This document shows positions 28,379 to 51,542 of a DNA stretch of 64,000 nt, in pieces. Origin of the DNA: Dipodascopsis uninucleata var. uninucleata (lineage: Eukaryota > Ascomycota > Lipomycetes > Lipomycetales > Lipomycetaceae); the NCBI GenBank assembly GCA_030568195.1, contig JAJLTO010000016.1, forward strand, positions 1 through 64,000, written 5' to 3'. The stretch's first letter is position 1. Each line of letters begins with the position of its first letter. The position numbers and the translations under genes were made by a program. The notes under the pieces are model-generated. The model had not been told where the DNA came from. It searched no databases and saw only the letters and a program-made list of their open reading frames with translations.

Positions 28379-29482
28379 TTACAGAACTTCAACCTTCGTG
28401 AGTGCAGCTCCATTCTGCGCTGATCTCGTAAGTGCTTCGAAAACAGCAAAGTGGTGGAAAGCTTTTCTTGGAGTAGCCTTAATTCGTGTCTTGTCTTTGT
28501 GCTCGACCGCATCAGCAAAGTTCTCTAGCTCTCTTACAACTCCGTTCACTTCGTCGTTGTCTACAATATAGACATTCTGGGAAAATTCAGTACCACTCTC
28601 ACCCTCAAACAACGTGACTTTAGTTGGTTCAGATGATCTCATAAAACGCTCGTAAACGATAGATCCTTTGGTGCCATATATACTAAATTCAACTTTGTCA
28701 TTTGTCGCACCCAGATTAGTTGAATACATAAATGATCCGTAAACTCCTGACTTCAAATTAATAAGCGAGTTCACAGTATCTACGGCACCTACAAAATCCC
28801 TCAATTGGCTCGCGCGTGCAGATACAGACTCAACCTCTCCAAGAACTTCTGTTAATAAAGCAATTTCATGAACTCCGCCATCGCTTATATATCCGGCGGC
28901 GTTCTCGTGTTTCTGTCTCCACGCGGTACTATGATATACGTTAGGCGCAAAAGACAACGTCACTTGATACATGAACGTTACAGATTCACCGATTCTGGGT
29001 AGAATCTGATTTATCAAATCTATGCTGTTATGATAGAGGTAATTTTCCAATACCATAACTGGCACACTGGTAGACTCAGCAAGTTCCACAATTTTTCGTG
29101 CATCAGTCAGATTAGGTGCAATAGGCTTCTCGAAAGCAATCGGCTTCCCAGCTTGAATGGCCTTCGTCACAATATCAAGGTTGAATTGCATAGGTAAAAT
29201 AGCGTCGACCACATCTATTGCGGAATCGTTTATTAAAGCAGCTAGATCGTCGTACACAGTCACAGAATTCAGCTTAGTCTCTTCAACATATGCGATCGCT
29301 TTGGCTTTCGTTCTATTGTAGACACCAGTGATTTTTAGCAGTGGAATTTTCTCTATTGATGGCAAATGAGCGAGTCGCGCAAATATCTAGAGTATGCATA
29401 CTATGAGCATAAATATCCTCCAAGTTCTTTACTACAAAGATCTACTTACGCCAGTGCCCACGAGTCCTACATTCAAACACAT
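28379..29482 (-). CDS. Gfo/Idh/MocA family NAD(P)-dependent oxidoreductase, one intron
   Basis: Exons on the minus strand are 29482-29450 and 29386-28379, with a 63-nt intron (GTAAGT donor, CTCTAG acceptor), giving 346 residues. The tiny first exon supplies the start of the Rossmann motif: MCLNVGLVGTG joins IFARLAHLPSIEK, restoring the G-x-G-I-F-A loop typical of the fold. The family EKP motif is AFEKPIAP (about residues 97-104), followed by a C-terminal alpha/beta domain with the GGVHEIALL helix. Enzymes of this family oxidise or reduce sugars, cyclitols or dihydrodiols; the substrate here is unknown. It lies on the same strand as the hydroxyquinol genes just upstream (30189-37209), so it may belong to that block. 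A second member of the family lies at 38220. Confidence 0.87.
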
Positions 29483-30188
29483 TGCTTAATTTTTCCTCTT
29501 TTAATAGTTAAAATCTTCTTGAATAGAGTGCAGAATACAATAAGCTAACGGAAAGCTCTGTTACTTTGCTAAAAATGACAGTGTAGATAACCTTGGCTCT
29601 TATAGATATCACATTTGAGAGGAGTAGCTAGGACATAAGACTTGAACTGATTTTACTTACTTATACTAGTACTTTCTCGTCGAAAGTTTTTCTTATAGCC
29701 AGCTCAAGCAGAAATATGTTGCCCAGTATCTCAGTTAGGTAATATTTCTGTCAACTGAGGTAATTCGTATGGAGCTTAGGGTAACAATAACCTTTCCCGT
29801 CGATATTCCTCGACATGAATGTTTAGTTCGACTCGGTTATGTGCCGGACTCATTTATCACCACAGCTGGCCACTCATTTTCATGATTGTTTAAATAGCCT
29901 GTCAATATGATTAGAGGTAGCTTAAATGCGTTTATCTATGGGCGTTTGCGAGAGATTACTGCACGAGAGCTAGGAAGTGTGGTTAATGGCACTCTTCCAG
30001 AGCCATATCATCAACTCTTGTAATTGATTGAAATAATTAAATAATTTAAATTTGAAATCCTTATCTAATAGCATCTTTATCATCTTTATAATTAATATTA
30101 CCTGTAATATGACTATTTATATATATCATATAACTAAATCATACGGAACGAATCTTATAAAAATTAGTGCGATGTAAATCTAATAGGA
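29483..30188. other. Intergenic region
   Basis: 700 bases between the Gfo/Idh/MocA start and the dioxygenase stop. It contains a small GTCGA...TCGAC inverted repeat and CGG triplets around 29790-29860. No gene was seen. Confidence 0.4.
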
Positions 30189-31228
30189 CTACTTACTAAT
30201 TGGAAGACCATCATCAATCTCGGCCATTACACCAAGTGCACTTAGAGCGCTAACCGCATTGTAGTCTCTCAATTGTTTAGCCTCCGCATCAGAAACTAAA
30301 ACAAAGTCGTATCTTAAATCCCAGCTACCTAAAGGTACACCGTACGTAGTAGCCACTTCAGGATCATCAATGGTATCGAGATCAATGAGAAGCGAAGATT
30401 TAACACCGAACACAGCATCTGTTGTCTCATAGGGATCTCCTCGTATATATAAAGAGGTAATTAGTTCATCGAAGCCTTCTTTCCGAAACTTGAAATGCAT
30501 ATGACTAGGACGGTATGGATGCCGACCAAGCATTTTGAGTAATTTACCGACTGGACCATCGTGTGGGATGGGGTATGGAACTGGACGAATGGCGCGAAAC
30601 CAGAAATTGCCGTTGCTATCGGACCGAATAATTCCACGACAGTCTGGACCCTCCCGATCTTCATACTGTGTGTCATACTGCCCAGTCTCATCCGTCTCCC
30701 AAACATCTATGATACATCCTTCAATTGGATCGCCATTAGTGTCCTTTAGCGTGCACCTTACCAGACAAATTTCTCCCTTTCCCTCTGAGCAGATTGAATC
30801 ACCAAGCTCAAATTCAAGAGCATCATGCGTATGAAATGGACCAAGTACAGTTCCATTAGTTGCATTAGGAGGTTTCGGGTGGTTCATAACATCAACCAAA
30901 CAAGAAAGTCCTAGAACGTCCGAGAGTAAGATAAATTCCTGTTCACTGTTAGGGGATCTGGTGAGGTCTTCGAAATAAAATATATACATACCTGTCTTGT
31001 AGCGGAGCATATTTGACCACATTCGGTAAGAAATTCAATTGCTGCCATCCATTCTTCACTTGAAATTCTAGTCTCTCTTGCAAAGTCGTGTAGATGGCTT
31101 ACTAGACGTTCGAACAAGTATTTGAGTCTTCTGTCACTTGTCTGGTTATTGATAATAATGGTGTTCTCAGTTATATTCTCATCCGTGAGATCCTTTAAAG
31201 GAGGTAAGCCATTCTGCGTAAGAGACAT
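30189..31228 (-). CDS. HDX1: Hydroxyquinol 1,2-dioxygenase (intradiol ring cleavage), one intron
   Basis: Cleaves hydroxyquinol (benzene-1,2,4-triol) with O2 to maleylacetate; non-haem Fe(III) enzyme. Exons on the minus strand are 31228-30992 and 30938-30189, with a 53-nt intron, giving 328 residues. The join CSATRQ/EFILLSDVLG matches the family motif. Iron ligands are visible: Y167 (GQYDTQY), Y201 (PVPYPIP), H225 and H227 (RPSHMHF). The loop VLGPFHTHDA favours hydroxyquinol over catechol enzymes. The symbol follows the Candida parapsilosis 3-oxoadipate pathway gene; orthology was not tested. An upstream AG in the intron would give an immediate TGA and lies only two bases after the branch-like CCTAAC, so the second AG was taken. 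A TATAAAA (minus strand, 31271-31277) lies about 45 bases before the ATG. Confidence 0.92.
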
Positions 31229-31935
31229 AGTAATAGTTCTTATGCCTATATTAGTATTTGGTTATATCAATTTTATAAGACTCGTTTGATTCTGGGTGAA
31301 CTGTTCTGCTTTCACTCATATGGTCGGTGGTAGTGTATTATATAGGTCACTCGAAATTATTGAAGCCTCAATCAATGCGGCGTTTGTGGGGAGATAGTAA
31401 CGGTTAATTGCTTATCCGGAATATTACCCACTCAGGAATTCTATTATTCTTCAATAACTTTTCTAGTTAAGACTTCGGCTACGTTTATCCTTGAAGCTTC
31501 ACACCACGTTATTACTAACATCGCAAGCTCAAATAGTTACATATGAGTTACGCTATGATTTTTTTACTTTTTACTTAAATTATAAGTAAGTGAATAGATC
31601 TCCTACCCGTAATGTTCATAACAAGCATTAGGCCGCCGGGGATGCTCGGATGTCGGATATCCAACTCAATAGCTTCGATCAAGTTACGCAATAAGCCTTA
31701 CTAACATTCCGAAATCAGTAAATATATCTATGGATCTAAGGTGTTCTATAGCAGGATGTGTTACAATTGTATTACATCGAATGGTATTTGGTCTTGAAAC
31801 CAGGGACATGGTCTGTTACAACGAACTGGCTTTTTAAGATACGAAACTATAATTAAAAATTTCAAGGTTATTCGGTTTATCATCTGTCATATGAATTGAA
31901 ATAGAGCATTAACTCATGACATAATACGTAGTGTT
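31229..31935. promoter_or_regulatory. Upstream region of the dioxygenase gene
   Basis: 700 bases upstream of the hydroxyquinol dioxygenase and downstream of the CoA-transferase. A TATA box lies at 31271-31277 (minus strand). A cluster GCCGCCGGGG...TCGGATGTCGGATATCC (31632-31662) contains two TCGGAT copies 7 bases apart, about 420 bases from the ATG. These are candidate sites for a Zn2Cys6 regulator. Confidence 0.5.
31646..31658 (-). promoter_or_regulatory. Tandem TCGGAT half-sites upstream of the dioxygenase
   Basis: TCGGAT at 31646-31651 and again at 31653-31658, a 7-base pitch. The same hexamer or its complement occurs upstream of the CoA-transferase (33914-33948) and of maleylacetate reductase (35757-35762). 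A shared operator is inference. Confidence 0.35.
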
Positions 31936-33541
31936 TTAAAATGTCTGCAGGTCAGAGGCTACTGCGAAATCAGCATCAACTTTAGCTTTTATATCCCCAA
32001 CAGTGTATCCCTCAGCAACCTCAATTAGAAGAAGGCCATTATTCGGACTGACATCAAATACAGCAATATCTGTAATAATTCTAGATACGCATTTGACTCC
32101 CGTAAGGGGAAAGCTGCACTCCTTTAAGATCTTTGGTCTACCTTTACGGTCTACAAGATCCATCACTACAACTACCCTTGTCTTCTCTGGGTACGCTACA
32201 AGATCCATTGCTCCACCCATACCTTTTACCATACCAGGGAGGGCCCAGTTTGCAAGATCTCCATATTGTGAAACTTGCATTGCTCCGAGAATTGTAAGAT
32301 TGATCTTTCCTGCGCGAATCATAGCGAATGACTCCTCAGAGCCGAAGAAGGAGGCTCCTGGGAGTATTGTAACTGTCTCTTTCCCAGCATTGATCAGATC
32401 TGGATCTTCCTGTCCAGATTGTGGATAGGGTCCTAGCCCTAATATTCCATTTTCAGATTGCAATGTGACGTGAATATCATCAGAGAGATAATTTGGTGCT
32501 AGGGTAGGCATTCCAATTCCAAGATTTGCAAAACTTCCATCTTTGAATTCTAGTGCAGCCCTCTTGATTATGCGCGCGCGCCTTATAGACTTATCAGAAT
32601 ATATGTTTTGATTATCGTTACCGAGAAAGCTATCGTTTGTCTTCAAAATCTCTATATCTTTAGTAGTAGTTGATTGAACCACCTTATCAACGTAAATGCT
32701 AGGAAGATGAACATCTTCGGGGCGAATTTCACCTGGCTCAACGATGTGTTCCGCCTCCACGATTGTCACTTTTCCAGCACGGCCCATTACAGAATTAAAA
32801 TTCCTTGCCGCTTTTCGAAAATAACAATTACCATACATATCAGCTTTATATGCCTTTACGAATGCTATGTCTCCAACAATTGCCTGCTGCAATAAGAATT
32901 TACGTCCATCAAATTCTCTTGACTCTAAAGGTTCAGATTTCTTTATAACTTCCCCATGTTGGTTGTATTTAATGGGTAATTCACCTTCTTCTACCCATGT
33001 CCCTACTCCTGCAGGGGAGTAAAATGCTGGGATTCCTGCACCACCTGCTCTGCAACGCTCTGCCAAATTTCCTTGAGGTGTCAATTCGACTTCCACTTTA
33101 CCAGTGAGATACAATCTCTCGAATAGTTTATTTCCTCCAATATAAGAGGAAATCATCTTCGAAATCTGACCGTTCTTTAAAAGCTTAGACAGACCTGTAG
33201 TCTCCGTTCCTGCATTATTTGACACAGCGACAATATTAATGATATCAGACTTCTTAGACATAGCATCAATCAGAGTATCTAGGAGATTGGTTAGTAGCGT
33301 ATTTTCACTTGCTGTATAGATATTATGTACCTGGCACACCAGACATTCCAAATCCACCACAAAGCAGCGTAAAGCCGCTCTTAATGTTAAGCAATGTCTC
33401 TTCTGCAGAATTGTATATTTTGCTCTTCTGCCAGCTTGTGGCAGCGGAGTGAAACCGAGCTGAACATCTCCATTTTTTCGCTTGTAGTTCTTCAGCTATA
33501 GACAAAAGTGTCAATATATCTCTCCGCATCGTTACTCTCAT
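31936..33541 (-). CDS. OSC1: 3-oxoadipate/3-oxoacid CoA-transferase, fused A-B subunits, mitochondrial, one intron
   Basis: Transfers CoA from succinyl-CoA to 3-oxoadipate, the third step after ring cleavage. Exons on the minus strand are 33541-33331 and 33278-31936, with a 52-nt intron (GTACAT donor, textbook CTACTAAC branch, TCCTAG acceptor), giving 517 residues, the usual length of fused SCOT-type enzymes. The join gives GGFGMSGVPDTLIDAM, matching the family. Without it the frame would run through the intron as false coding sequence. The first 40 residues (MRVTMRRDIL...KKWRCSARF) are Arg/Lys-rich and lack acids at the start, so this is a likely mitochondrial presequence. The catalytic Glu is E346 in QSENGILGLG. 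The family also contains ketone-body enzymes; the context argues for 3-oxoadipate. A (TA)n run lies about 60 bases upstream of the ATG. Confidence 0.9.
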
Positions 33542-34353
33542 TATCGTCTTCGGAAACGACAATTATATTTAAAATATTATAACGCGCACAGGATAATCCA
33601 CTTATATATATATATATGTATTTGTGTCCGTGTAAAATCATCTGTCTGTCATTACCTATTAACATTTATCTTTCCGATGGCAATGGGAATGTAATTATCC
33701 GGGATTTATCCAACAACATTCAAAACGTCCAATAGCACTTTGAAGATTAATTCATTAAAACTTTGATTCTAAAAACTACAGAATGTCATCACATTCTTGT
33801 AGTTAGCTGTACTTCGGAGTTCTCGCAAACAGTATTTCTGTGGTATGTTAACTACAAGAGTTCACAGGTGTCACACTAGGAACTGCATTTTTGTTTAAAA
33901 GGACAAGTCGTTTATCGGATTACAAATAAAAAAGACCGGAAATCCGATTAAATTTTATTATTTATGATTTAGTTTACTTCGGGATACCGAAATATATAGA
34001 TTTCTTGTTTTTCATGTTCTCTAATTTTCGGGTGAGCTTATATCCTCCACTGACCTTCTACAAGAAATGCGGGGTGTTCTAAACTCTAACAAGTACTTTT
34101 AAGTCATATAAGGTTTCAGGCACACCCACACCCTACTAGTTTTGAGTAAAACTTGTCGAGTTCTACACTAGTTGGCGTAAGAACGATAATGTTTAAGTTG
34201 CTATATAATTTAGACAAATTGCGAATACTATAGTGTAATAGCTAAAGAAGGTCGTGTTTTTGCTTGCTATCTAAGAACCTTTCCTGATCGTACCTATACC
34301 TGGCACGTTACGGCCCACTCTCGCACATTTTTCGATACAGAGCATAAAATGCT
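33542..34353. promoter_or_regulatory. Upstream region of the CoA-transferase gene
   Basis: 800 bases that also hold the 3' end of maleylacetate reductase. They contain a (TA)8-like run at 33602-33617, an inverted repeat at 33914-33948 and ATCCGG near 33698. No gene was seen. Confidence 0.45.
33914..33948. promoter_or_regulatory. Inverted repeat ATCGGATT...AATCCGAT
   Basis: Perfect 8-base arms (33914-33921 and 33941-33948) separated by 19 bases, about 370-410 bases upstream of the CoA-transferase ATG. Each arm carries a CGG/CCG triplet and the TCGGAT hexamer seen upstream of the dioxygenase. Candidate operator; inference. Confidence 0.4.
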
Positions 34354-35483
34354 TTACCAATTAGATTTTGCAGGAACTCCCGACCATGCTCTACTAATGA
34401 GCTCCCTAATACCATTCTCTTCAATTGCTCGAGGATTCCAATATGGATTTGACAGTGCTATGCTCGTAGCTTTATCGATATCAGACTCTTTCATTCCAAA
34501 ATATTTAAGGCCCTTTCTGAACTGGATCTTGTCAATCAGAATATTTAAGCCCTCAATAGCATCACCATTGCTATCGGGTAAGACATCGGCTAGTTTCTTC
34601 ATAACTTCTGGAATTGCAGGCGCGTTATAAGCCAACACATGAGGAAGAACTATTGTGTGTGTCTCGGCATGAGGCAGATTGAAACTTCCACCTAATGTGT
34701 GGCAGAGTTTGTGATGTAATGCCATCCCAACACTGCCGAGACATGTGCCACAACACCATGCCCCATAGAGAGCAAGAGAACGAGCTTCGAAGTCGGCAGC
34801 GTTTGCCACAATTATTGGTAGAGCAGTCGCCAAAGCCTTAATTCCCTCCAATGCAACGATAGAGATTATTGGATTAGCTTGTCTAGCGTACATGGCTTCC
34901 ACTACTGTTGTATTAGTTCGGCCAAAAAAAAACTTAGTATGCGGACTCTCTTACCTGCATGTGCAATTGCATTGATTCCACTAGTAGCACTCATCGTGGT
35001 TGGTAGTGACATAGTAAAGTTAGTATCATATATCGCAGCAGATGGATATATATTAACATTAGTACGAGTAGTCTTAAGGCCATCTTTTGTCTCGCCCAAA
35101 ATAGAAGTCATCTCAGAACCTGCATAAGTAGTTGGAATACATACATGAGGTAAACCAGTGCGAATGCTGATTGCTTTACCGAGACCAATTGTACTACCTC
35201 CACCGACTGATACAACGGAATCTGCAGCTATGCCTTCCAAGTACGCTACTGCCTTCTCAGTGATATGAACAGGAGTATGCATTGTAGCTTCTGAAAAAAC
35301 ACCAGCAATCTTCCCATTCAAAACTCTCCTTAAAATTTCTGCAATCTCAACCTGTTGTGGAGTCGTAAGTATGACTGGCGATAATTTACCGAGTCTCTTC
35401 ATCTCCTCAGGCAGTCTCTCTATGGAACCTACTCCAAAGAAGACGCGAGTGGGTATCGAATTGTATTCAAATTCAAGTGGCAT
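34354..35483 (-). CDS. FRD1: Maleylacetate reductase, one intron
   Basis: Reduces maleylacetate to 3-oxoadipate with NAD(P)H, the step after ring cleavage. Exons on the minus strand are 35483-34955 and 34901-34354, with a 53-nt intron (GTAAGA donor, CAGTAG tandem acceptor), giving 358 residues. The join yields NAIAHAVEAMYA, the iron-ADH-superfamily helix; using the first AG of the tandem would merely add one Val. The NAD-binding loop is VSVGGGSTIGLGKAI (about 91-105). TTYAGSEMTSILGETKDG is characteristic of maleylacetate reductases, which have lost the metal site of true Fe-alcohol dehydrogenases. The symbol follows the C. parapsilosis pathway naming; orthology was not tested. It lies between the CoA-transferase and the thiolase, on the same strand. 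Confidence 0.92.
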
Positions 35484-35983
35484 ATTTGACTATATTATTT
35501 AGACGATGTATTAGCTACTAATTGCTACTTATTCCAGTTGATACGAAATATCGATAACTATAGTTTTATTAATTTGGAGATATTTCCATAGCTATATAAA
35601 ATATCTGCATATGCAGCTGACCAAAATGACGTCGTACATATGCACCAGCTATTATTGTTGAAACTAAAGCTCAGTGTTTTAGCTTCGCTCTCCACGGTTA
35701 ATACAATATCCTTTCACACTACGGCAAAAGATTTTTCCCTTTTAGGGTCCCCAGGCATCCGAGGGCAAACTATAATAAAACACAGCGAAGACAAAATTAC
35801 TATGTAATCTTTATATATTACTAACTTCTACTACGCATATAAGAAAAAGTGAAAAATGACCATCCTTCCGTTGTGTAATGGCAGAGTAAGTTACCAATCT
35901 TCAAGGAAAATCGCCCAAAAAAGCAATCTAAATATGTCCGTCGGTTACGGTAACATTAGTCAAGCTCAAAACACAAAAGTTGT
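35484..35983. promoter_or_regulatory. Upstream region of maleylacetate reductase
   Basis: 500 bases between the reductase ATG and the thiolase 3' end. An ATCCGA (35757-35762) lies about 275 bases upstream of the ATG, and a TATATAAAAT patch lies near 35595. Confidence 0.4.
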
Positions 35984-37209
35984 CTATTCTCTTACGAAAA
36001 GACCGGCGTAGCCCTGTCCAGTGGAAGCACACATAGACACAATACCCAATCTTCCACCTGTAGTCTTCAGCCCATTTAAAAGCGTTGTAATACATCTTCC
36101 TCCAGTCGCACCTAGCGGATGACCAAGCGCAATAGCCCCTCAAATGGATTGACTTTCTCCATATCGATACCTAGACTGCGGGTTACGTATAGTGATTGCG
36201 ACGCAAACGCTTCGTTCAGTTCCCATAGATCAATGTTAGATGTTTTAATTCCATTCAATTCTAGTAATTTGGGAATCGCAATAGCAGGTGCAATGCCCAT
36301 GATTCTACAAGGCACACCTGCGACTAATGAATTTACAAATTTTCCAATTGGCTGTATTCCAAGCCGTTCTGCCACAGATCGCCTCATTACAAGTACTGCA
36401 GATGCTCCATCTGAAATCTGAGATGAATTGCCTGCTGTAGTTGTACCATTCTCTAGGAATACTGGTTTTAGCTTCGCCAGCTTTTCATACGTAGTGTCTT
36501 TGCGAACGCCATCGTCTCGCGAGACTGTGCTATACGATATTTCATCTGTCGGGCCACACTCTGTTCTATTCTTTACGAATTGCCGAGCATGAACCGGGGC
36601 AATTTCTCGGTCAAAATAGTTGTTCTCTTGCGCCTTGGCTGCTTTCAGATGGCTAGACTCAGCGAAGAGATCTTGGTCATCCCTACTAATCCCATACTCC
36701 CGTGCAACGTTCTCTGATGTAATGCCCATAGGCATGAAAACGTCTTTCGAGTCTTGCACGGTAGATTTGTCAAATGCTGGTGCTATTCTCTCTGGTATTC
36801 CCCGATGGGGAAAGTAGTCGAAGGTCATTGACTCTACACCAGCTGCAATTCCACAATCAAGAGCATTAGAACGAATAGCATAGGCAATTGAAGACAGTGC
36901 CTGAGCTGACGAGGCACACTGACGATTTATAGTACAAGATGTTGTCGACTCTCCGAACTTAACATTTTTGATAGCAGCAGCAGATGTCTTCTGACCACCG
37001 AGCTTTTGGAGCACAGTACCAGTCACGATATCTTGTATTTCTTCGACAGGAATGCGCGTCCTGCTAATGGTCTCTTTAAGAACAATTGCCAGTAGTTCTT
37101 CTGGATACATATTTGCTAGTCCACCTTTTATAGATCTAGTGAATGGCGTTCTTATAGCCGATACTATGACAATATCGGTCACCTTCTTAGTCAATAGTTT
37201 CTCCATCAT
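35984..37209 (-). CDS. OCT1: 3-oxoadipyl-CoA thiolase (acetyl-CoA C-acyltransferase), apparent single-base frameshift
   Basis: Last step: splits 3-oxoadipyl-CoA with CoA into succinyl-CoA and acetyl-CoA. The main frame runs from the ATG at 37209 with the nucleophile C98 in [13 protein letters not shown], then [13 protein letters not shown] and [13 protein letters not shown]. At 36136-36141 the frame breaks inside the [12 protein letters not shown] block: it reads NPFEG and soon stops. The next frame continues perfectly with [32 protein letters not shown] and a stop at 35984. One missing G explains it. The lost segment holds the catalytic His (GHP) and second Cys (CASTGQG), so as written the enzyme would be dead. 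No plausible intron removes the problem. All neighbouring steps are intact, so sequencing error or very recent loss are both possible. Confidence 0.85.
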
Positions 37210-38219
37210 GATTTATAATAAATTGAGTAATTCGAAGCTGTCTCCTACTATCTGGGTCCAGTGGCCTACATCGCAATAGCAAACTTATATATCTGTAATG
37301 ATAAGACATATGCTCTCTTTATTGAAACAGAGCTATAGAGCCCAACAATTATAGTTCTGGAGTTGCAATACTACGGATAAATATTTAAGCGTTATACTTA
37401 CCATCTCGCTCTGCCATTTCTGCCGCGTTTAGTTACAGGTTCCGAAGTTTCAGCAAGCAGCTCCGCGTTTTTTAATATTGCAGCATCCTAGACATAATAA
37501 TTTTACTGCTATTAGTCGAAACTAGCAGAACGCAGATTTCGAGAGTATATTTGTAGAAGAAGCATTAAAGAGTAGAGCTTTCTCCATGACAATAACCCTG
37601 GCTCCCCGCTCGCTTTCTGGTCTGTATTTTTGCGCGAATCGTTTGCGCCATAAACTTTTTTCCCATATATCTGCTAAGCATTGAATTCTTCTGCTCTATA
37701 TCATACCATGCTGTTATCCAGCATTGCCGGGACGTATCAGCTTGCAAAAAGCTATTTCTACGAGAAAAAAAACATAGTAGAGGAGAAGATTTTGATCAAG
37801 ATCCACTCTCTTGTCTTTACCGCAGTATCTCTTCCTATTAATATCTCTGTCGTTTATCCGTCATACTCAAATCACAAAAGCAAGCTAAATGGCAAATGTT
37901 CTGACAACCTCCTTCTTTCTCTGCAAAAGCTTCATCTTACCTCTCCGGCAAGTTTACTTAAGCTTAAGACTATTTTAATGTTACCTGCCTAATACAGAAG
38001 ACTATGAAACCCAAAGATGTTCTACCTAGCGCTCCAAGTTCTTTCTTTTTATACTTTCAAGTTACTTCCTCCCACTTCACTAATTATTAATCACTCTTCG
38101 AACGTTTTCAAAACAAATCTCTCGTACAATAAATATCTCTCACTTGCCCTCAACTTCCTGGGCACCCAAGTAACAATATGATATTTTATCCTGAATAAGC
38201 ATTAGTGTATTGCTACATT
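37210..38219. promoter_or_regulatory. Divergent intergenic region, thiolase and dihydrodiol-dehydrogenase-like genes
   Basis: 1 kb between two divergently transcribed genes. An ACGGAT (37373-37378) lies about 165 bases upstream of the thiolase. A C/T-rich tract with scattered TCTCTC and CTTCC runs towards the ATG at 38220. A 100-codon open frame on the plus strand (37681-37992) is not recognisable and probably chance. Confidence 0.4.
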
Positions 38220-39470
38220 ATGTCTCAACCTTCTTCTTTACCAACTATACGCTGGGGTATCATTGGTATGTCTTCTCTAATACAGTTCTCAGTATGCGAA
38301 ATATTTCCTCATCCTTGCCAACTGACTACCATCTTTAGGTGCTGGATGGATATCTTCTTGGTTCGTCGAGGATTTGCAAGTAGCTCGTCCTAATCCAAAG
38401 GCAAATCACATAATTCAAGCGATAGGCTCATCTTCTCTTCAGAAGTCCCATAAATTCGCTAAAGACTATTGTCCTAAATTATGTCCTTGTCCTTCGCTCT
38501 ACGGTTCTTATCAAGAATTATATGCGGATCCCCATGTAGATGTTATCTACGTTGGTACTCCCCATGCTTTCCACGCAGAACAAGTGCTTGAGATGCTGGA
38601 AGCTGGCAAGCATGTCCTATGTGAAAAGCCAATTACTATAAATGCAAAAGAAGCTCAGAAACTTGCTAATGTTGCTCGAGAGAAAGGTCTTTTTCTCATG
38701 GAAGGTAAGTCCAATATTTGTAACAACTCTTTCTACGACTTATCAAAATAGCAAAAACAGTCTCGGGACTTTGATATGTATCTAACATTTTTTTAGCGAT
38801 GTGGACTCGATTCACACCTGCTGTCGCCAAACTCCGCCAGCTGATTCACGTCGATAAAGAAATCGGTGAAGTGAAGCGCGTTCTCGTCGATTTTGGCTTC
38901 TTTCATGATGTCGATAACAAATCTGAAGCTTCTAGAATTAAAAATATAAATTTAGGCGCTGGAGTTCTCATTGATATGGGTGTATACTGTCTTACCTTAG
39001 CAAAATTGGCACTAGATAGGAAGATTGGCAAAGATTCTGATGTACCAAAAGTAACCGCTTGCCACTCGCTTTTCAACAATGTCGACTACATTACCTCTGT
39101 CATCCTGCAATATCCCGATACTGGCAGACAAGGTATTTGTACCATAACTGCTTATTGCAATTCAGATCCTGATAATTTTATGCGAGTAGAGGGTACAAAT
39201 GGTGTTATCATCGTTGGTGGTGTAAATACAGCTCGCCCAAACAAGGTTACTCTTACTTACAGGAACAAACTAAAGAATCCGGTAATATACGATTTTCCTG
39301 CACCTGGTCGAGGTTTTTACTGGGAGGCTGATGCTGTGGCTGTTGATATTGTAAATGGCAAGACGGAGGATGATTTGATGCCGCTGGATGAGACGTTATT
39401 CATAATGAAGCTACTGGACGACATTAGGTTCAATCACGAAGGTACCATCTACCCGCAAGATGCAGAATAA
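38220..39470 (+). CDS. Dimeric dihydrodiol dehydrogenase / D-xylose dehydrogenase-like (Gfo/Idh/MocA), two introns
   Basis: Exons 38220-38265, 38339-38704 and 38797-39470, with introns of 73 and 92 nt (GTATGT and GTAAGT donors), giving 361 residues. The first join gives RWGIIGAGWISSWFVEDL, the NADP-binding loop. The second gives FLMEAMWTRFTPAV, a hallmark of the trans-1,2-dihydrobenzenediol dehydrogenase / NADP D-xylose dehydrogenase group. The EKP motif is VLCEKPITINAKE, and GVYCLTLAKLALDRK is also typical. Family members oxidise aromatic trans-dihydrodiols or aldoses. The neighbourhood of aromatic catabolism makes a cyclic diol attractive, while sugar transporters in the window leave xylose possible. 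It diverges from the thiolase gene. The start was chosen because upstream in-frame codons are not ATG. Confidence 0.9.
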
Positions 39471-40496: not shown

Positions 40497-41204
40497 ATGA
40501 CGAAAGGAGACCTACATTCGCTTCCAGACGGCACGCGACCGCAACACGCCATTAGAAATAATGGACCAGATCATCTGGCTCTTGAGAGATACAAACTACG
40601 TGAACTTGCAGAGGGTTGGCCTTGCTATAGAGATTCCTGTGAATGGGAAAACTTTAGGTCTATTTTTCACTCTGACGCCTATGTCTATACGACATGGACT
40701 GGAAGAACTGCAATTGAAGACTTCATAAATGTTTCTCAAGTTGGAATGGATAAAGGTGTTTTTATTTCGCACAGAGTGCATGGCACAACGTCAGATATTC
40801 AGGATCATAGAGCAGTCACAAAGATGAAAGCTACTATTACTCAGAGGTTTACTCTTGCAGGTGGGATTGAAGTTGACGCTGAATCTGACTGCCGATTTTG
40901 TTTTTTTTTTGAGAAGAGAGATGGAAAATGGGGTGCGGTCTATGTCAGACACTGGTATGAGAAGGACAAACTAATCCCAGTAAATCCAACGAAATTGCCA
41001 GTCCTTGACGACGAAAAACTCAAAAGGTATCCCAAGGGATACAGGTATTTGTCGTATTGTCAGGAAGAGACTATGGGTATTAAAGTTAGGCTAGATCTAC
41101 CTGGTCATCGAAGCGAGGATGATAGTGTTTGTGGAAGAGAGCACGACAGACTTTACGTTCAGGCTAAACAATGGTTGGAAAGCAATGAGGATATTATCAT
41201 TTAG
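40497..41204 (+). CDS. SnoaL-like (NTF2-fold) domain protein of unknown function
   Basis: 235 residues from the first ATG at 40497, without introns. The pattern [56 protein letters not shown] and later [21 protein letters not shown] is that of fungal SnoaL-like proteins: a cone-shaped NTF2 fold with a C-terminal helix extension. Relatives include polyketide cyclases, dehydratases and isomerases acting on cyclic small molecules; the actual reaction is not known. It sits between the dihydrodiol-dehydrogenase-like gene and a Zn2Cys6 regulator, so it could be an enzyme of the same aromatic or cyclic-diol route. A ten-T run codes for Phe-Phe-Phe (near 40900) and is a spot where base miscalls or slippage could occur. 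Confidence 0.8.
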
Positions 41205-41384: not shown

Positions 41385-43709
41385 TTATGCAATACTGAAG
41401 AAAGAAAATTCTTTGCCATAGTCCTCTGCTAGTGAGCTGGACAGTCGGCTTACTGCATACTTGCTGTCATCCATCAGATAGTATTGCTGCGCCGAGTCAT
41501 TAATAGATTCTGCTTCACTTAAACTATATAAAAGGGGCTCTTCTTTTTGTTCGTTTAAGTTTTGTTCTTCAAGCAAAATATTATTTTTGGACAGCTTATT
41601 CCTTTGATAAAAGATAGCTAGTTCTTCAAAATTAGAAAGGGATATCAAGGCACCCGGCCAAGATTTTGCGATGTTTTTTAGAATTTTTATAATCTTCCTA
41701 ATTTGTAAGTACTCCTGTGGTGCAACATCATGAAATTTACTGTCAAAGCTTTCAAAGAACGCGGCGCATACACAAGCATAATACTCCATAAGCGGCGATG
41801 GTGCCATATGGCATGTACTGGTCCAAAGTAAGTTCGAAGCTTGCGTAGATATCTGAATGTACATCACTCGCCTCTCAGTAGATGTCACAGCAGGAGACAT
41901 CATCGTGAGCTGTATTAACATCCGTGCTACATGATGGACGAGCTGAAGATTTGTAATATGAGGAGCCATCAACTCTTGAGAAGAGAAATTGGTTTGACAA
42001 TATATCGGAAGTGAATCTTCCCATAAATCAAGTTCATCAGCTAAAGTATGACATATTTTAAGCTCGTTGTCACTCTTAGTAGAGCTAGTTTCAGGGGTAA
42101 ACACAGATGCCGATACCAATATTTTGTTTACAATATTAACTAGTCGTATAAGAAAGTTGAAGACTGAAAAGCACCTGGCTGGCTCAGTTCCGATCTTAGA
42201 GTTCTCGGCATTTGATAAAAAATTATAGCTCTCCCACTCTTCCGCTCCGGTTTCGTCAATAAGGGATGATATATACCAGTCTTCAGAACGCAAATTTGGC
42301 ATTTTACCTAGTCGAGCAGCAATTAAAGTGTCCAATACATAACATGCACACCACGTCCTCAGACGTTGTTTTAATGCAATATGTCCATTTCCAGTAGCAA
42401 CTGAATCGATTTCGCTTAGATAAAATCCTGAATCAATTACTAAGTTACAAGAAAATGTGATTTTTTCCCAAGACTGTTGCCAACGTCCAATTCCAAGATA
42501 ATATAGAGAGAGAATTAGATCTGTCTGGATCCTTTCTATGTTATTTCCGCCAGCGCTTATGATTGCTTCTGCATATTCCGCATACTTTAATGCTCTTGTA
42601 GGGTCTTTTGGTACCAATGATATCGACAACACCGCCCAAAGTAGTGCTAGGACTGATATAGCCGATTTGGAATTTTGATTATGAATAAGCGTCATTAGTT
42701 TATAGCGGTCAACCATTGGAAGCCAACAATGTACGGTCGCAAAGTAGTGATCCATTAGCTGTCCTGAATCTGATGGTATCGTTCGATTCAAATAGTCAGG
42801 CTTAAGAATATTAATATTATAATTATTCGAATATTGGTCATATGGAAAGACTCCAAAATACTCTAGAGTTTGCTTATAGGCACTAATCCTTGCTATCGAT
42901 AATCCACTCGACAATCCAATATATCGAAATATTCCGCTATTATGGTCTGTGTATATTCTTCTATTAGCAAATTCGAGTGGTTCACACATGAATTTTTCCT
43001 TAGTCGACTGATATGGGGAGCTTTTTATGCTATCTTGATTAGAATTTGGACTCCGGTTAGAACTCAAAGATGTAACTTTGGTTAGATCTGAACCTTGACT
43101 GCATGATCGGATTCCATCGCTCGGTGATAAAGTTCCTTCTGTTAGATCATGCTCCTCCGTAGATACGTGAAGCGCAGTATTTTCTAGCATAAAAGAATAA
43201 CTGCTAGCTTTAATCGATTCTTCTCTATGCTGAGAAAGAGATGTTCTAGATTTCTTATAGTTTAAGCCGTTGAGTCTTGCTTTGGTGTTCTCTACTTCAA
43301 GTTCAAATTTTGTGAATGCACGACTTTTATACCATTGCCACATCTCTGAGAAATAAGGCGCATCCACTGACTTGGACATGTCCCGACATAAGCTATCTGA
43401 GCTTGTTTTTAGTAAATGGATGATCTCCTGTTGAATCTCTGGATTTTTCAGGATTAAACTACTAAGTAATCTTTCAAATAATAATGTTCTGATTTCCATG
43501 TCATGTGCATGGCCTGCTGGGAGGCCCCTCTTCTTTCTCGAGCTTACATCATACTTGCACGTCTGTCGTATTGAGGCGCAGTATGAACACGAAGGCATTA
43601 TTCCATCGCACTTTGCTTTGCGTGCACGACACTGGAGGCATGCCAATGTAACCCTCTGACGTACAGTCGTTGGTGCTATTGTATACTCCATAGTTCTTTG
43701 TTTTACCAT
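41385..43709 (-). CDS. Zn2Cys6 (fungal-type) transcription factor
   Basis: 774 residues from the ATG at 43709; upstream codons in frame are not ATG. The binuclear zinc cluster is C24-x2-C27-x6-C34-x6-C41-x2-C44-x6-C51 (ACLQCRARKAKC...CSYC). It is followed by SSRKKRGLPAGHAHDMEIR, a linker reminiscent of the AmyR-like group of fungal regulators. The middle region matches the fungal-specific transcription factor domain (HYFATVHCWLPMVDR, LALLWAVLSISLVPKDPT, YYLGIGRWQQSWEKI, LKQRLRTWCACYVLDTLIAARLG read in pieces). A Ser-rich stretch lies between about residues 165 and 250. It is predicted nuclear. Its position next to the hydroxyquinol block makes it the natural candidate pathway regulator, by analogy with zinc-cluster activators of aromatic catabolism in other yeasts. 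No experimental link can be read from sequence. Confidence 0.93.
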   Translation of the reverse strand: MVKQRTMEYTIAPTTVRQRVTLACLQCRARKAKCDGIMPSCSYCASIRQTCKYDVSSRKKRGLPAGHAHDMEIRTLLFERLLSSLILKNPEIQQEIIHLLKTSSDSLCRDMSKSVDAPYFSEMWQWYKSRAFTKFELEVENTKARLNGLNYKKSRTSLSQHREESIKASSYSFMLENTALHVSTEEHDLTEGTLSPSDGIRSCSQGSDLTKVTSLSSNRSPNSNQDSIKSSPYQSTKEKFMCEPLEFANRRIYTDHNSGIFRYIGLSSGLSIARISAYKQTLEYFGVFPYDQYSNNYNINILKPDYLNRTIPSDSGQLMDHYFATVHCWLPMVDRYKLMTLIHNQNSKSAISVLALLWAVLSISLVPKDPTRALKYAEYAEAIISAGGNNIERIQTDLILSLYYLGIGRWQQSWEKITFSCNLVIDSGFYLSEIDSVATGNGHIALKQRLRTWCACYVLDTLIAARLGKMPNLRSEDWYISSLIDETGAEEWESYNFLSNAENSKIGTEPARCFSVFNFLIRLVNIVNKILVSASVFTPETSSTKSDNELKICHTLADELDLWEDSLPIYCQTNFSSQELMAPHITNLQLVHHVARMLIQLTMMSPAVTSTERRVMYIQISTQASNLLWTSTCHMAPSPLMEYYACVCAAFFESFDSKFHDVAPQEYLQIRKIIKILKNIAKSWPGALISLSNFEELAIFYQRNKLSKNNILLEEQNLNEQKEEPLLYSLSEAESINDSAQQYYLMDDSKYAVSRLSSSLAEDYGKEFSFFSIA

Positions 43710-46338: not shown

Positions 46339-47901
46339 TTAATGACTAGCTTGATCGTAGCACGTAGCATCACCAGTCTGTTCGGCATGTTCCGACGTGA
46401 CTTTCTCATCCTCCCCGTTCAAAAGGTCCCTATTAGTTGCAAGTTCCGTGGTATCGATGGAAGCTGTTCTCCATGCAGGTACTTTCTTTTCCCAGATAAT
46501 ATCAATTTCCTCAAGAGATTTTCCTACAGTTTCAGGAAACATAAAAAATACATGAATACACATAGCTAAACAAAAAGTACCGAAGACAATATATGTTTTC
46601 CATTGTAAATTCTGAAATGCTGAAGGTACAAATAGACCCAATGCAAAATTAAATATCCAATTGGCTGCCGAGCACAAGCCATTTGCTACGGCTCGCTGCC
46701 GAAGTGGAAAGATTTCAGGCACATATATCCATACTCCCGGTCCCCATGTCAGTGCAAACGTTGCCACGAATAAACAGGTGAATGCAATGATGCTTTTGTC
46801 AGCAGCCGCTTCAGGAACGACCCATCTGATATTTGCATTCCCGCCCAAAGAGTCTACATAGTGACCTTTGCCTGCCATAACACCACCTACAATAAACAGA
46901 AAAGCTGCCTGTAAAATAGCTCCATAAATCAATAACGGCCGACGACCCCAATGGTCTATGAAAATAACTGAGAAACAGCAAGCTATAAAATTAACAACGT
47001 AAATTATAGATGAAGATACTAGACCCGCATTACCAGAATAGTTGGCCATGATAAACATCTCAACAATGTAGTACATCATAATATTAATACCAGTCAGCTG
47101 CTGCCAGATCTGCGAAAATATCCCTACAAAAGTGCGGGTCCTCGTACCTTTGGCGAACAGATTCATCAAAGTTACTTGACTGGACTCAAGTCGTATAACC
47201 TCGTGTAGCTCAAGAAGATCTGTTCGAACCGTTTCTTCAACATCATGAGATTTTCCTTGGGCTTCTAGGCGCGAAATAATGAGCTCGGTCTCCTCCCATC
47301 GGTCATGAGATGCCAACCACCGAGGTGACTCGGGCAATATGAAAATCAGGAAGAACATTAAAATGCCAGGAATCATTTGCAGACCCCATGCTAATCTCCA
47401 AGAAACTGTACTATGAATAAATGTACAACCATATGATATATAATACATAATCATAACTCCAGCGGTCAATGAAAGCTCAAAGACTGCAATCATTCGGCCC
47501 CGACTTTCTTTAGGACTAAGTTCCGCAATATAAACTGGAACCTGCGATGTGCATTGGCCAATAGCAACACCTGATAGAACACGTCCTATAATGAGCTGCT
47601 CAACACTGTGAGCAGAACACTGTACGACTGAGCCAACGATCCAGATCAAAGAAGCAATCTGAATAATTATCTTCCTTCCGTATCGATCGGATATGTATCC
47701 AGATCCAAGGGATCCTAGAAATGATCCTCCGGCCATTGAAGAAGTTATTCCTCCTTGCTTAATTGAAGTTGGGTAGTTAAAGTATGACCTATAGGAATCT
47801 ATGTTTATAAACGCAGACATGGAGCCTATGTCAAAGCCATCTAGTATTCCACCGAGCGCTGCAGAAGCTGCTATAGCATAGATATTATAGATTGTATACA
47901 T
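46339..47901 (-). CDS. MFS sugar transporter (fungal xylose/hexose porter type)
   Basis: A complete 520-residue porter with 12 predicted membrane segments, no intron. Signatures in order: GGILDGFDIGSMSAFI (TM1), YRSYFNYP and KQGGITSSMAGGSFLGSL (TM2), SDRYGRK, IIGRVLSGVAIGQCTSQVP, AELSPKESRGR, PESPRWLASHDRWEE, QIWQQLTGINIMMYY (TM7), DHWGRRPLLIYG, WIYVPEIFPLRQRAVANG and FPETVGKSLEEID. The block around TM1-TM2 and the DRWEE loop place it with the large fungal group that includes xylose, glucose and lactose porters, rather than with the hexose transporter at 10314. A quinate substrate would suit the neighbouring dehydroshikimate dehydratase, but the quinate-permease signatures are not obvious. 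It has a hydrophilic cytosolic tail of about 40 residues. Confidence 0.92.
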   Translation of the reverse strand: MYTIYNIYAIAASAALGGILDGFDIGSMSAFINIDSYRSYFNYPTSIKQGGITSSMAGGSFLGSLGSGYISDRYGRKIIIQIASLIWIVGSVVQCSAHSVEQLIIGRVLSGVAIGQCTSQVPVYIAELSPKESRGRMIAVFELSLTAGVMIMYYISYGCTFIHSTVSWRLAWGLQMIPGILMFFLIFILPESPRWLASHDRWEETELIISRLEAQGKSHDVEETVRTDLLELHEVIRLESSQVTLMNLFAKGTRTRTFVGIFSQIWQQLTGINIMMYYIVEMFIMANYSGNAGLVSSSIIYVVNFIACCFSVIFIDHWGRRPLLIYGAILQAAFLFIVGGVMAGKGHYVDSLGGNANIRWVVPEAAADKSIIAFTCLFVATFALTWGPGVWIYVPEIFPLRQRAVANGLCSAANWIFNFALGLFVPSAFQNLQWKTYIVFGTFCLAMCIHVFFMFPETVGKSLEEIDIIWEKKVPAWRTASIDTTELATNRDLLNGEDEKVTSEHAEQTGDATCYDQASH

Positions 47902-48760: not shown

Positions 48761-49819
48761 TTATTGCTGAATCTTCTTCAATGCTAATCTTTCAACCAAC
48801 ATATTCCAAGATCTGGCTGCTCTTAAAGCGTGTACTTTAGGTACAGATGGATCAGGATCTTCTAAAGACAGGTTGTAAATTTCAAACGAAAGCCACCCTT
48901 TCCAGCCCCATTCTAGTAGTAAGATTCGAAGAACATCCTCCGTAGGAAAGAAAGCGTCTTTGTCTTCCTCATATGGAAACACCCGAGCGTTTTCGCACCA
49001 AATTCGCCGCCAAGCTTTATTTGGGTCATACCATGGATGACTAAATGACATTGGAGGATTAAGACGGGATGCATCTGATATCTGAATATAGAATACTTTA
49101 TCCACTGGAACAGTCTTTACAAAGTCAGAAAGGCTAGACCTAAGTTGCATATCACCTCCTGGCTGGATACATGATCGTGCTGTAGGATCTCCCCAAACGC
49201 GAGCAATAACATGGTAAGTATCGAGGCATATTCCAAAATTGGATCGATTGACCTTTTGTACTATGCGCCATACGTCTTGCCATGTGTCATTATACATACC
49301 CCAAGCAAGCGCCTCAAACGCAAATCTAACTGGCGGATTATACTGAAGACCCATGTCAGCTAGAGCTTGAAGTTCATGTACGATTTGCTCATCATCACCC
49401 GTAGTCTCGTTGAATATATCAACCTGCGTGGCTATCTGGACTATATCTGTATCAACTGCACGGGCTAGTTCGATAAACAGCTCAGCTTGCTCTAACTTCT
49501 GTGCTCTGAGCATTGGATTTGTGTGCCCTTCAAAATGCATTATTGGCTCAAAGACACAAACTTTAATATTGTGTTGCTTGCACAGTGCACCATATTCTTT
49601 TGCGATTCTTATTGCATTTTCTCTGAATGTTCCTTCTTGGCACTTCAATGCTTCCACTTCAATATCTCCATACCAAAACTCGATTCCTTGAAATCCTGTC
49701 TCAATGGCAGCCTGTAATTTCTGCTTGAATCCATGACCCTTTTCAGGATATCCAAGGCTCGGCGAGGAAATGGCAATATTTAAGCCTTCGACAATAGAGC
49801 AAGTAGAATTCATAGTCAT
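48761..49819 (-). CDS. 3-dehydroshikimate dehydratase-like enzyme (QA-4 type TIM barrel)
   Basis: A 352-residue xylose-isomerase-like TIM-barrel protein, complete and intronless. The block GLQYNPPVRFAFEALAWGMY with NDTWQDVWRIVQKV, and NFGICLDTYHVIARVWGDP, closely follow fungal QA-4/QutC 3-dehydroshikimate dehydratases. The predicted metal and active-site residues are E169 (FEALAW), D200 and H203 (LDTYH), Q246 (FYIQISD) and E313 (LSFEIYN). The reaction would be 3-dehydroshikimate to protocatechuate, the entry of quinate and shikimate into aromatic catabolism. Protocatechuate could reach the hydroxyquinol genes 12 kb away through an oxidative decarboxylase not found in this window. The generic alternative is a sugar-phosphate isomerase/epimerase; the motif match makes the dehydratase more likely. 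Confidence 0.82.
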   Translation of the reverse strand: MTMNSTCSIVEGLNIAISSPSLGYPEKGHGFKQKLQAAIETGFQGIEFWYGDIEVEALKCQEGTFRENAIRIAKEYGALCKQHNIKVCVFEPIMHFEGHTNPMLRAQKLEQAELFIELARAVDTDIVQIATQVDIFNETTGDDEQIVHELQALADMGLQYNPPVRFAFEALAWGMYNDTWQDVWRIVQKVNRSNFGICLDTYHVIARVWGDPTARSCIQPGGDMQLRSSLSDFVKTVPVDKVFYIQISDASRLNPPMSFSHPWYDPNKAWRRIWCENARVFPYEEDKDAFFPTEDVLRILLLEWGWKGWLSFEIYNLSLEDPDPSVPKVHALRAARSWNMLVERLALKKIQQ

Positions 49820-50147: not shown

Positions 50148-51266
50148 TCACTTTAAATCAATGACAGCACGGCCTATCAGCTGAGATTTTTCCATAAGTC
50201 TAAATATCTCTCTGATATTTTCAGCGGGATATATAATAATATCGGGAATAACAGCGTTTCTAATTACAAAGCTAATAGCATTCTTAATATCATCCCTAGT
50301 ACCAACCATCGATCCCACTATTCTGAGATCTTTATGAATAATTACCATAGGATCAACGTGTATTCTCACGTCCCTCGATGGCAAACCTACACAAACCAAA
50401 GTTCCTTGTGCTTGCAAATAAGTGCACGCTTCATTATATGTAACCTCTGATGCCGCAAGAACCACAACTCCCTGAGCTCCACCATTTGTAAGTTCGAGAA
50501 CAGACTGCTTCACATCAACTTTTTTAAAGTCGACGAAAGCAGATGCTCCTAGTTCAGTTGTTTTCTTTTTCTTGTCTTCACCAGTATCGATAGCTATGAC
50601 TTTAATACCCATTGCTATTGCATATTGTATGGCTAATGTTCCAATTCCTCCTCCTGCACCTGCAATTACAAGCCATTGGCCAGCTTTTACTGCTGATTTC
50701 TTCACTGATTTGTAAGCCGTAACGCCTCCGCATAGAATTGGCGCTATTACAGCGTCATCGCTCGCTTCGGGCACGGGCACTAAATATGAGGCCTCCAGTG
50801 TAATGAATTGCTCAAAAGATCCATTTGCCTGCTTACCATGATACTGTGCATTAGGACAAAGTGTCTCGCCATCTTCACAATTGAGGCAAGCATAACAAGA
50901 TCCACATGGATTTCTAATTAGCGGTACTCCAACTTTAGAGCCAATTGGCGGTACTGTTGAAGCAACGACGGATGGATGAATCTTGATGATCCTACCAATA
51001 CCCTCGTGACCAGGCACATCACAAGACGACGCGTGGTCCCATATGCCACTTAATGCTGAGAGATCTGAATGGCACACACCAGAATATGTCAATCTCACCA
51101 ATACCTGACCCTCTTTGAGGATTGGCACTGGATATTTGTCATTGATCTCAATAGCAAAATCGCTGCCGGTCTAATTTAGTTAGTATACGTACATAAAAAG
51201 AAATGATTGAGAGCTGACCTTTGTGGCAACAACCGCCCTTTGCGTCGAAGGAACTGAGAAGTCCAT
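50148..51266 (-). CDS. Zinc-dependent alcohol dehydrogenase, ADH1 class, one intron
   Basis: Exons on the minus strand are 51266-51219 and 51170-50148, with a 48-nt intron (GTCAGC donor, TACTAAC branch, AATTAG acceptor), giving 356 residues. The 16-residue first exon restores the normal N-terminus: VVATK joins TGSDFAIEINDKYP. Zinc ligands are C49 (SGVCHSD) and H in VPGHEGIGR; structural Cys lie in CGSCYACLNCEDGETLC. The cofactor loop GAGGGIGTL is followed by AIDTGEDKKK, where the Asp suggests NAD. It oxidises an alcohol to an aldehyde or the reverse, in the cytosol. It is transcribed away from the aldehyde dehydrogenase at 51543. The two products are a natural alcohol-aldehyde-acid relay sharing a promoter with a CGG inverted repeat. 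Confidence 0.92.
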
Positions 51267-51542
51267 ATCTAATCATCTAATCTAATAATCACGATTGCTT
51301 CTTTCGTTAAGAATTTATTTCGGATATATAGTAAATATCTCGGCAAAGTAACGAGAGTACTTATGCCGAGATGGGTCAAGCAAGGTCGCCTTTACTATTC
51401 TTGTCGCGTGAATTTACTAATCAACTCGGGACTGCCACTTTCAGAACAGTGAGAGTGGAGATCACTGTGTATAAAAGCATCGATTGCGAACTCAATTATT
51501 CAAGGAGGAATTGTAATCAAGGGTTATTAAGTGATTTCTTAT
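51267..51542. promoter_or_regulatory. Divergent promoter of alcohol and aldehyde dehydrogenase genes
   Basis: 276 bases between the two ATGs. Near the middle is a perfect inverted repeat with CGG/CCG (51337-51372). TTTCGGATATATAG close by and GTATAAAAG (51470-51478, towards the aldehyde dehydrogenase) look like core promoter elements. Confidence 0.6.
51337..51372. promoter_or_regulatory. Inverted repeat ATCTCGGCA...TGCCGAGAT
   Basis: Perfect 9-base arms at 51337-51345 and 51364-51372, with an 18-base spacer, giving CGG-N22-CCG. It lies about 70-105 bases from the ADH start and 170-205 bases from the aldehyde dehydrogenase start. The architecture suits a dimeric Zn2Cys6 regulator, and such a gene lies immediately beyond the aldehyde dehydrogenase. 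Binding is inference. Confidence 0.55.

Follow-up and report, generated by a model that had tools for sequence, protein, structure and literature searches.

A predicted hydroxyquinol cluster of five minus-strand genes, encoding a thiolase, a maleylacetate reductase, a CoA-transferase, a hydroxyquinol dioxygenase and a Gfo/Idh/MocA oxidoreductase, occupies 28.4-37.2 kb of contig C16 (JAJLTO010000016.1; 343,947 bases) of Dipodascopsis uninucleata var. uninucleata. The first 64 kb of this contig were analysed and are referred to below as the window; the genome assembly (GCA_030568195.1) comprises 16.2 Mb in 25 contigs. The enzyme families, the gene order and four QA-1F-type promoter boxes are established at the sequence level. 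We consider it probable that the cluster as a whole is fed by protocatechuate through a hydroxylase encoded on contig C9 and is controlled by a quinate-type activator acting through these boxes. Such a gene set would serve to degrade ring compounds of plant origin. Cleavage of hydroxyquinol would give maleylacetate, and its reduction 3-oxoadipate, which would then be coupled to CoA and undergo thiolysis. The hydroxyquinol itself would come mainly from protocatechuate by way of a PhyA/Mnx1-type decarboxylating hydroxylase on C9, and the protocatechuate would be taken up from the medium as well as made from dehydroshikimate by two dehydratase paralogs on C16. A Zn2Cys6 factor in the window, a paralog of the factor in a quinate-type gene block on the same contig, would activate the four core genes. 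Hydroxyquinol clusters are already known; what is new is the apparent link to genes for quinic acid use on this chromosome arm.

A sequence-only reading of the window had described genes for ring cleavage, reduction, CoA transfer and thiolysis on a common strand, flanked by a Gfo/Idh/MocA gene. Pfam supports each of these families, the best domain per gene having an E-value between 1.8e-21 and 1.2e-104. The earlier gene models were incomplete, with introns and first exons missed, and the maleylacetate reductase is one gene rather than two open reading frames. In the spliced models each of the four intron-bearing cluster genes has one intron of 52-63 bp. The Gfo/Idh/MocA gene, defined by Pfam and splicing, lies at 28379-29482 (intron 29449-29387), followed by the hydroxyquinol 1,2-dioxygenase at 30189-31228 (intron 30991-30939), the fused 3-oxoacid CoA-transferase at 31936-33541 (intron 33330-33279), the maleylacetate reductase at 34354-35483 (single 53-bp intron 34954-34902) and a 3-oxoadipyl-CoA-thiolase candidate that runs from 37209 to about 35984.

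The dioxygenase consists of the N and C domains of intradiol dioxygenases (PF04444, 1.9e-31; PF00775, 5.5e-34) and is predicted to be a hydroxyquinol 1,2-dioxygenase. Among solved structures, enzymes of that activity match it best (300-208 bits), whereas those for chlorocatechol and catechol reach at most 115 bits. In NCBIfam no model for the hydroxyquinol enzyme was reported, and the nearest family, chlorocatechol dioxygenase, scored below its cut-off. Two tyrosines and two histidines, which we take to be the iron ligands, are present in the alignments with solved relatives. The gene is the sole PF00775 place in the genome, and hence a second intradiol dioxygenase, for catechol or protocatechuate, was not found.

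The closest solved relatives of the maleylacetate reductase are bacterial maleylacetate reductases (E-values 5e-108 to 4e-105; 365-269 bits), and the protein is far from the solved protein named MAR1 (9ph0; 92 bits). In the segment GINAIAHAVEA an asparagine stands at the position of the metal-ligand aspartate, as in 3jzd and 3hl0; replacement of this aspartate by Asn or Arg marks the maleylacetate reductase subfamily of the Fe-ADH proteins (PMC5125639). There are two Fe-ADH places in the genome, and the window gene is the one that aligns over the whole model. Horizontal transfer from bacteria was considered because the best solved relatives are bacterial, but is not claimed, since the subfamily is reported from many fungi in the same source. 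The CoA-transferase (CoA_trans, 1.2e-104) is a fusion in which both TIGR02429 and TIGR02428 (PcaI/ScoA and PcaJ/ScoB) score above cut-off. Among solved proteins it is most similar to succinyl-CoA:3-ketoacid transferases, and a paralog on C8 is 68% identical, so that its substrate, 3-oxoadipate or acetoacetate, is not proven by sequence. By eye, its N-terminus resembles a mitochondrial presequence.

Among solved structures, 3-ketoacyl-CoA thiolases match the thiolase best (Thiolase_N, 4.4e-67; partial Thiolase_C, 7e-19). Its open reading frame stops after 365 residues owing to a frameshift at a G run near 36.14 kb, and the final ∼50 conserved residues, with GHPLG and the C-terminal Cys motif among them, are encoded in a different frame. 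Among the best 10 of 15 solutions, introns that would bridge the break were either 32-38 bp long and removed a conserved stretch, or longer and removed more. The gene is thus either a recently broken gene (pseudogene) or an assembly error. Against the PcaF model this truncated fungal protein scores 218 bits for a cut-off of 597, and a thiolase on C19 is likewise below it (284 bits). Further thiolase genes are present on C19, C3 and C2. The one at about 33.7 kb on C19 is intact, with 420 residues and an N-terminal sequence, RLSALASHL, that we take to be a motif like the type 2 peroxisomal targeting signal; the enzyme is probably a peroxisomal β-oxidation thiolase. The frameshift and this intact gene are what would be expected if the cluster were decaying or incomplete, with the thiolase step lost or performed by the peroxisomal enzyme. 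We regard such decay as quite unlikely, as the frame past the break is still well conserved, a break at a G run may be an assembly error and the remaining core genes are intact.

Hydroxyquinol must be supplied to these enzymes, and the sequence-only reading had noted that the window lacks a hydroxylase for this. That absence stands: PF01494 has ten places in the genome (21 of the 22 candidates were scored), all of them outside the window, and PF07976 has none within it. It had further proposed that the hydroxylase lies elsewhere or that the cluster serves a different upstream route. These alternatives are resolved in part: a decarboxylating monooxygenase of the PhyA/Mnx1 type lies at about 40.3-41.7 kb on C9, with one canonical intron, and quinate-type paralogs adjoin the cluster. 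A genome-wide search for hydroxylases, which that reading had called for, yielded the Mnx1-type (4-hydroxybenzoate/protocatechuate) class and no phenol hydroxylase. The best solved match of the C9 protein is 8gsm, named a 4-hydroxybenzoate decarboxylase (584 bits), followed by the decarboxylative vanillate 1-hydroxylase 8x38 (355 bits) and 8r2t (346 bits). The comparison with solved structures covered the C9 protein, and on visual inspection the remaining PF01494 proteins do not resemble this class of hydroxylase.

No match to the phenol hydroxylase family PF07976 was found genome-wide, with no candidates at first look (in the control a match was obtained in one of 14 genomes). TIGR02272, for gentisate dioxygenase, also gave no match in the genome, a weaker absence as the model stayed below its cut-off in all 14 control genomes; a gentisate pathway for the C9 hydroxylase was rejected on this ground. 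Since neither of these two families nor a further intradiol dioxygenase was found, protocatechuate appears to be the likeliest precursor of hydroxyquinol. This conversion is reported for several fungi (PMC9204233), and Mnx1p of Candida parapsilosis is described as turning protocatechuate into hydroxyhydroquinone (PMC8929692). As no member of the phenol-hydroxylase family was found, hydroquinone, resorcinol and similar mono- and dihydroxybenzenes should not feed the cluster. Entry of 4-hydroxybenzoate, hydroquinone and resorcinol by way of a Mnx3-type phenol hydroxylase, as in C. parapsilosis, is a described pathway (PMC8929692, PMC5144973) and would agree with the Mnx1-type enzyme on C9; the missing PF07976 match makes it very unlikely here, although a divergent or unassembled gene would rescue it.

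The C9 hydroxylase gene lies 40 kb from the C9 telomere and adjoins a DUF3500 gene and a gene of the fumarylacetoacetate-hydrolase family. The region C9:35.5-44.8 kb resembles a subtelomeric gallate-type cluster, with the hydrolase-family gene, the DUF3500 gene, the PhyA/Mnx1-type monooxygenase and a Zn2Cys6 factor, the last recognized by eye. PhyA is reported to act on both protocatechuate and gallate, with protocatechuate converted to hydroxyquinol in Aspergillus niger, and a DUF3500 protein has been proposed as the ring opener of gallate breakdown in A. nidulans (PMC12388069). The C9 enzyme may therefore serve gallate, protocatechuate or both. A role in gallate breakdown alone, together with the DUF3500 protein, would leave hydroxyquinol to an enzyme that our searches did not recognize. 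Such a role would fit the gene neighbourhood, the route proposed for A. nidulans and a promoter without a good box (see below), but is unlikely in view of the double substrate range given for PhyA and because no other PF01494 protein resembles this hydroxylase class by eye.

The link to quinate metabolism came from a search with PF08501, which led to a quinate-type block at C16:97.3-105.2 kb (97300-105153), on the same contig as the cluster. It contains a quinate/shikimate dehydrogenase, a QutR-type protein, a Zn2Cys6 factor and a dehydroshikimate dehydratase, so that dehydrogenase, dehydratase, activator and repressor stand together in C16:97-105 kb (activator and repressor being named from domains and position). 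The QutR-type protein (791 residues) combines shikimate kinase, dehydroquinase I and shikimate dehydrogenase domains. Two window genes are paralogs of members of this block. The Zn2Cys6 transcription factor at 41385-43709 (minus strand; Zn_clus and Fungal_trans), the candidate cluster activator, is 31% identical over 709 residues to the factor at C16:101.4-103.9 kb, which lies beside the QutR-like gene. The 3-dehydroshikimate dehydratase-like protein at 48761-49819 (minus strand) is 43% identical over 344 residues to the dehydratase at C16:104-105 kb. For the window dehydratase NCBIfam gives QuiC and no other family, and the sequence comparison with solved proteins gives 5hmq alone; a predicted model of medium confidence (mean predicted local distance difference test score, pLDDT, of 65) also has 5hmq as its best Foldseek match, followed by sugar epimerases. 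In bacterial QuiC1 the dehydratase is described as being joined to a hydroxyphenylpyruvate-dioxygenase-like domain (PMC7442255).

The genome contains no PF01220 match for a type II dehydroquinase, and type I dehydroquinase domains occur only in AROM and in the QutR-like protein. Where the type II enzyme is missing, A. nidulans is reported to compensate with more AROM, and its loss is reported not to matter in A. niger (PMC12610400). The AROM protein at about 294.3 kb on C4 ends after its dehydroquinase I domain, with no PF08501 place on that contig, and a stand-alone AROM-type shikimate dehydrogenase is found at C10:343306-344265 (238 bits for a cut-off of 196); AROM thus appears to be split between C4 and C10. 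Fungal AROM is usually a single five-domain protein. The term 'tetrafunctional' was not seen in the literature matches listed for AROM.

Otf1p, the activator of the C. parapsilosis pathway, is homologous to qa-1F, for which the site GGATAATCGATTATCC is given (PMC8929692). The pattern GGATAA-N4-TTATCC was scanned for in the 400 bp upstream of 25 genes, some of whose starts are approximate. Boxes of this QA-1F-like type, all on the minus strand, lie in the promoters of the dioxygenase (31402-31417, GGATAAGCAATTAACC, one mismatch, at -189), the maleylacetate reductase (35696-35711, two mismatches, at -228), the thiolase (37375-37390, two mismatches, at -181) and, as a weak box, the CoA-transferase (33685-33700, three mismatches, at -159). 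Two or fewer mismatches occur in none of the 21 other promoters, and three mismatches in seven of them. The mismatch sum of 8 over the four core promoters was not equalled in 200,000 resamplings drawn from 4000 random windows, and it ranks first among 60 permuted half-sites, with 11 for the runner-up. A spacer of 4 is the best of those from 0 to 8; all other spacers give sums of at least 12. An exact copy of the 16-mer of the dioxygenase promoter lies at C2:1769105-1769120, 16 kb from a contig end. The similarity around it covers 48 bp at 79% identity, and no recognizable cluster gene is nearby (best tblastn E-value 0.29).

Several observations weigh against a protocatechuate-fed cluster under a quinate-type activator. 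As regards the enzymes, the thiolase frame is broken, the type II dehydroquinase was not found in the genome and the C9 hydroxylase stands among the gallate-type DUF3500 and hydrolase genes. As regards the boxes, that of the CoA-transferase is no better than those of the seven other promoters with three mismatches, the promoter of the window Zn2Cys6 factor and three promoters of the quinate block have boxes with three or four mismatches only, and the best box of the C9 hydroxylase promoter has four. No exact match to the QA-1F consensus occurs in C16:1-114 kb or C9:1-60 kb, the Otf1 motif GGRN10WCC is not enriched (five of 15 promoters of 600 bp, compared with 25% of random windows), and sites with at most one mismatch are no commoner genome-wide than those of a reversed control (31 compared with 29). 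Because the results for the exact consensus, for GGRN10WCC, for the whole genome and for the C9 promoter are negative, the boxes support a shared regulator for the core genes only.

The same box results bear on whether the cluster takes external hydroxyquinol only, the activator and dehydratase paralogs belonging to another pathway. The promoter of the window dehydratase has no good box, and a parallel may exist in A. niger: the activator-repressor module NRRL3_07604/07605, described as having no known function (PMC10512348), is a neighbour by number of NRRL3_07603, a dsdA paralog reported not to be quinate-induced (PMC12610400), the adjacency being taken from the gene numbers. This NRRL3_07603-07605 set could be the counterpart of the factor and dehydratase in the window. 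Nevertheless, the QA-1F-type boxes do lie upstream of the core genes and the window factor is the nearest gene of the QA-1F-related type; we therefore regard a cluster restricted to external hydroxyquinol as rather improbable. Control of the core genes by the window factor remains the explanation that we prefer.

On the far side of the cluster a second Gfo/Idh/MocA oxidoreductase is encoded at 38220-39470 (plus strand, at least two introns, start approximate), followed by a SnoaL-like protein at 40497-41204 (plus strand; PF13577, 5.9e-11; no NCBIfam family), for which the predicted model was unusable (mean pLDDT of 32). A quinate-type box with two mismatches lies at 39966, near the latter gene. 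A sugar-porter-family transporter (46339-47901, minus strand) is situated between the Zn2Cys6 factor and the dehydratase, and a Zn-type alcohol dehydrogenase and a multi-exon aldehyde dehydrogenase, possible aromatic aldehyde enzymes, adjoin the dehydratase at 50151-53125.

The cluster is close to a telomere, as the sequence-only reading had proposed. Contig C16 opens with an array of 12.5 units of GTAACCCTAT at positions 1-125; literature searches for this unit gave no match. Among the matches listed genome-wide, the same GTAACCCTAT array terminates six other contigs (C7, C8, C9, C10, C11 and C12) and is also present on C5 and C14. The C9 and C16 ends share two short blastn matches only, and a similarity between these ends was rejected. 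Fungal features of the genome include Zn2Cys6 factors, short introns of the GT-AG type and the AROM gene, and its small size is in line with a yeast. CTG codons are found at positions fitting leucine, such as that in ELNEAF of the window thiolase, and membership of the CUG-Ser clade is therefore unlikely.

The sequence-only reading had described the pathway genes of C. parapsilosis as dispersed. This is true of part of them: FRD1-HDX1-OSC1-OTF1 form a four-gene cluster of the 3-oxoadipate pathway, with the remaining genes elsewhere (PMC8929692). As described for C. parapsilosis and the CUG-Ser1 species in the same source, dioxygenase and CoA-transferase are adjacent in the window and a candidate Zn2Cys6 activator of the qa-1F type is linked to them. 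In contrast, the maleylacetate reductase candidate there is the flavin-reductase-like FRD1 rather than an Fe-ADH protein, the thiolase gene OCT1 lies outside the four-gene cluster rather than inside, and the Mnx3-type phenol hydroxylase (PF07976) was not found in the genome studied here. Scedosporium apiospermum also has the reductase, dioxygenase and CoA-transferase together, with a P450 (PMC8283699); it differs in that P450 and in having catechol and protocatechuate branches, whereas D. uninucleata has a thiolase gene, the Gfo/Idh/MocA genes, a candidate activator and a paralog of the dehydratase close by.

The dehydrogenase, QutR-type repressor, Zn2Cys6 factor and dehydratase at C16:97-105 kb recall the QUT and qa clusters of Aspergillus and Neurospora. 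Gfo/Idh/MocA proteins occur there too, among them the quinate-induced qutH ortholog of A. niger (PMC12610400), although this is a resemblance only. The D. uninucleata genome differs in lacking a type II dehydroquinase and a protocatechuate intradiol dioxygenase, with the hydroxyquinol enzyme as its only representative. Among the matches listed for the one literature query aimed at it, no report was seen of quinate and hydroxyquinol genes being combined in this way in a yeast. We tentatively suggest, while holding this to be distinctly less secure than the protocatechuate-fed cluster, that quinate/shikimate breakdown may have been rewired, with the protocatechuate 3,4-dioxygenase branch gone, a second activator and dehydratase placed beside the cluster and a quinate-type box driving hydroxyquinol ring cleavage. 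One arm would then carry most of a quinate-to-hydroxyquinol supercluster.

If this explanation is correct, a duplicated quinate regulator came to govern the cleavage of aromatic rings; this would go some way towards explaining why the activator of the 3-oxoadipate pathway in C. parapsilosis is a homolog of qa-1F (PMC8929692). D. uninucleata would also provide an easily tested case in which protocatechuate is forced through hydroxyquinol, which would be useful for lignin-derived feedstocks.

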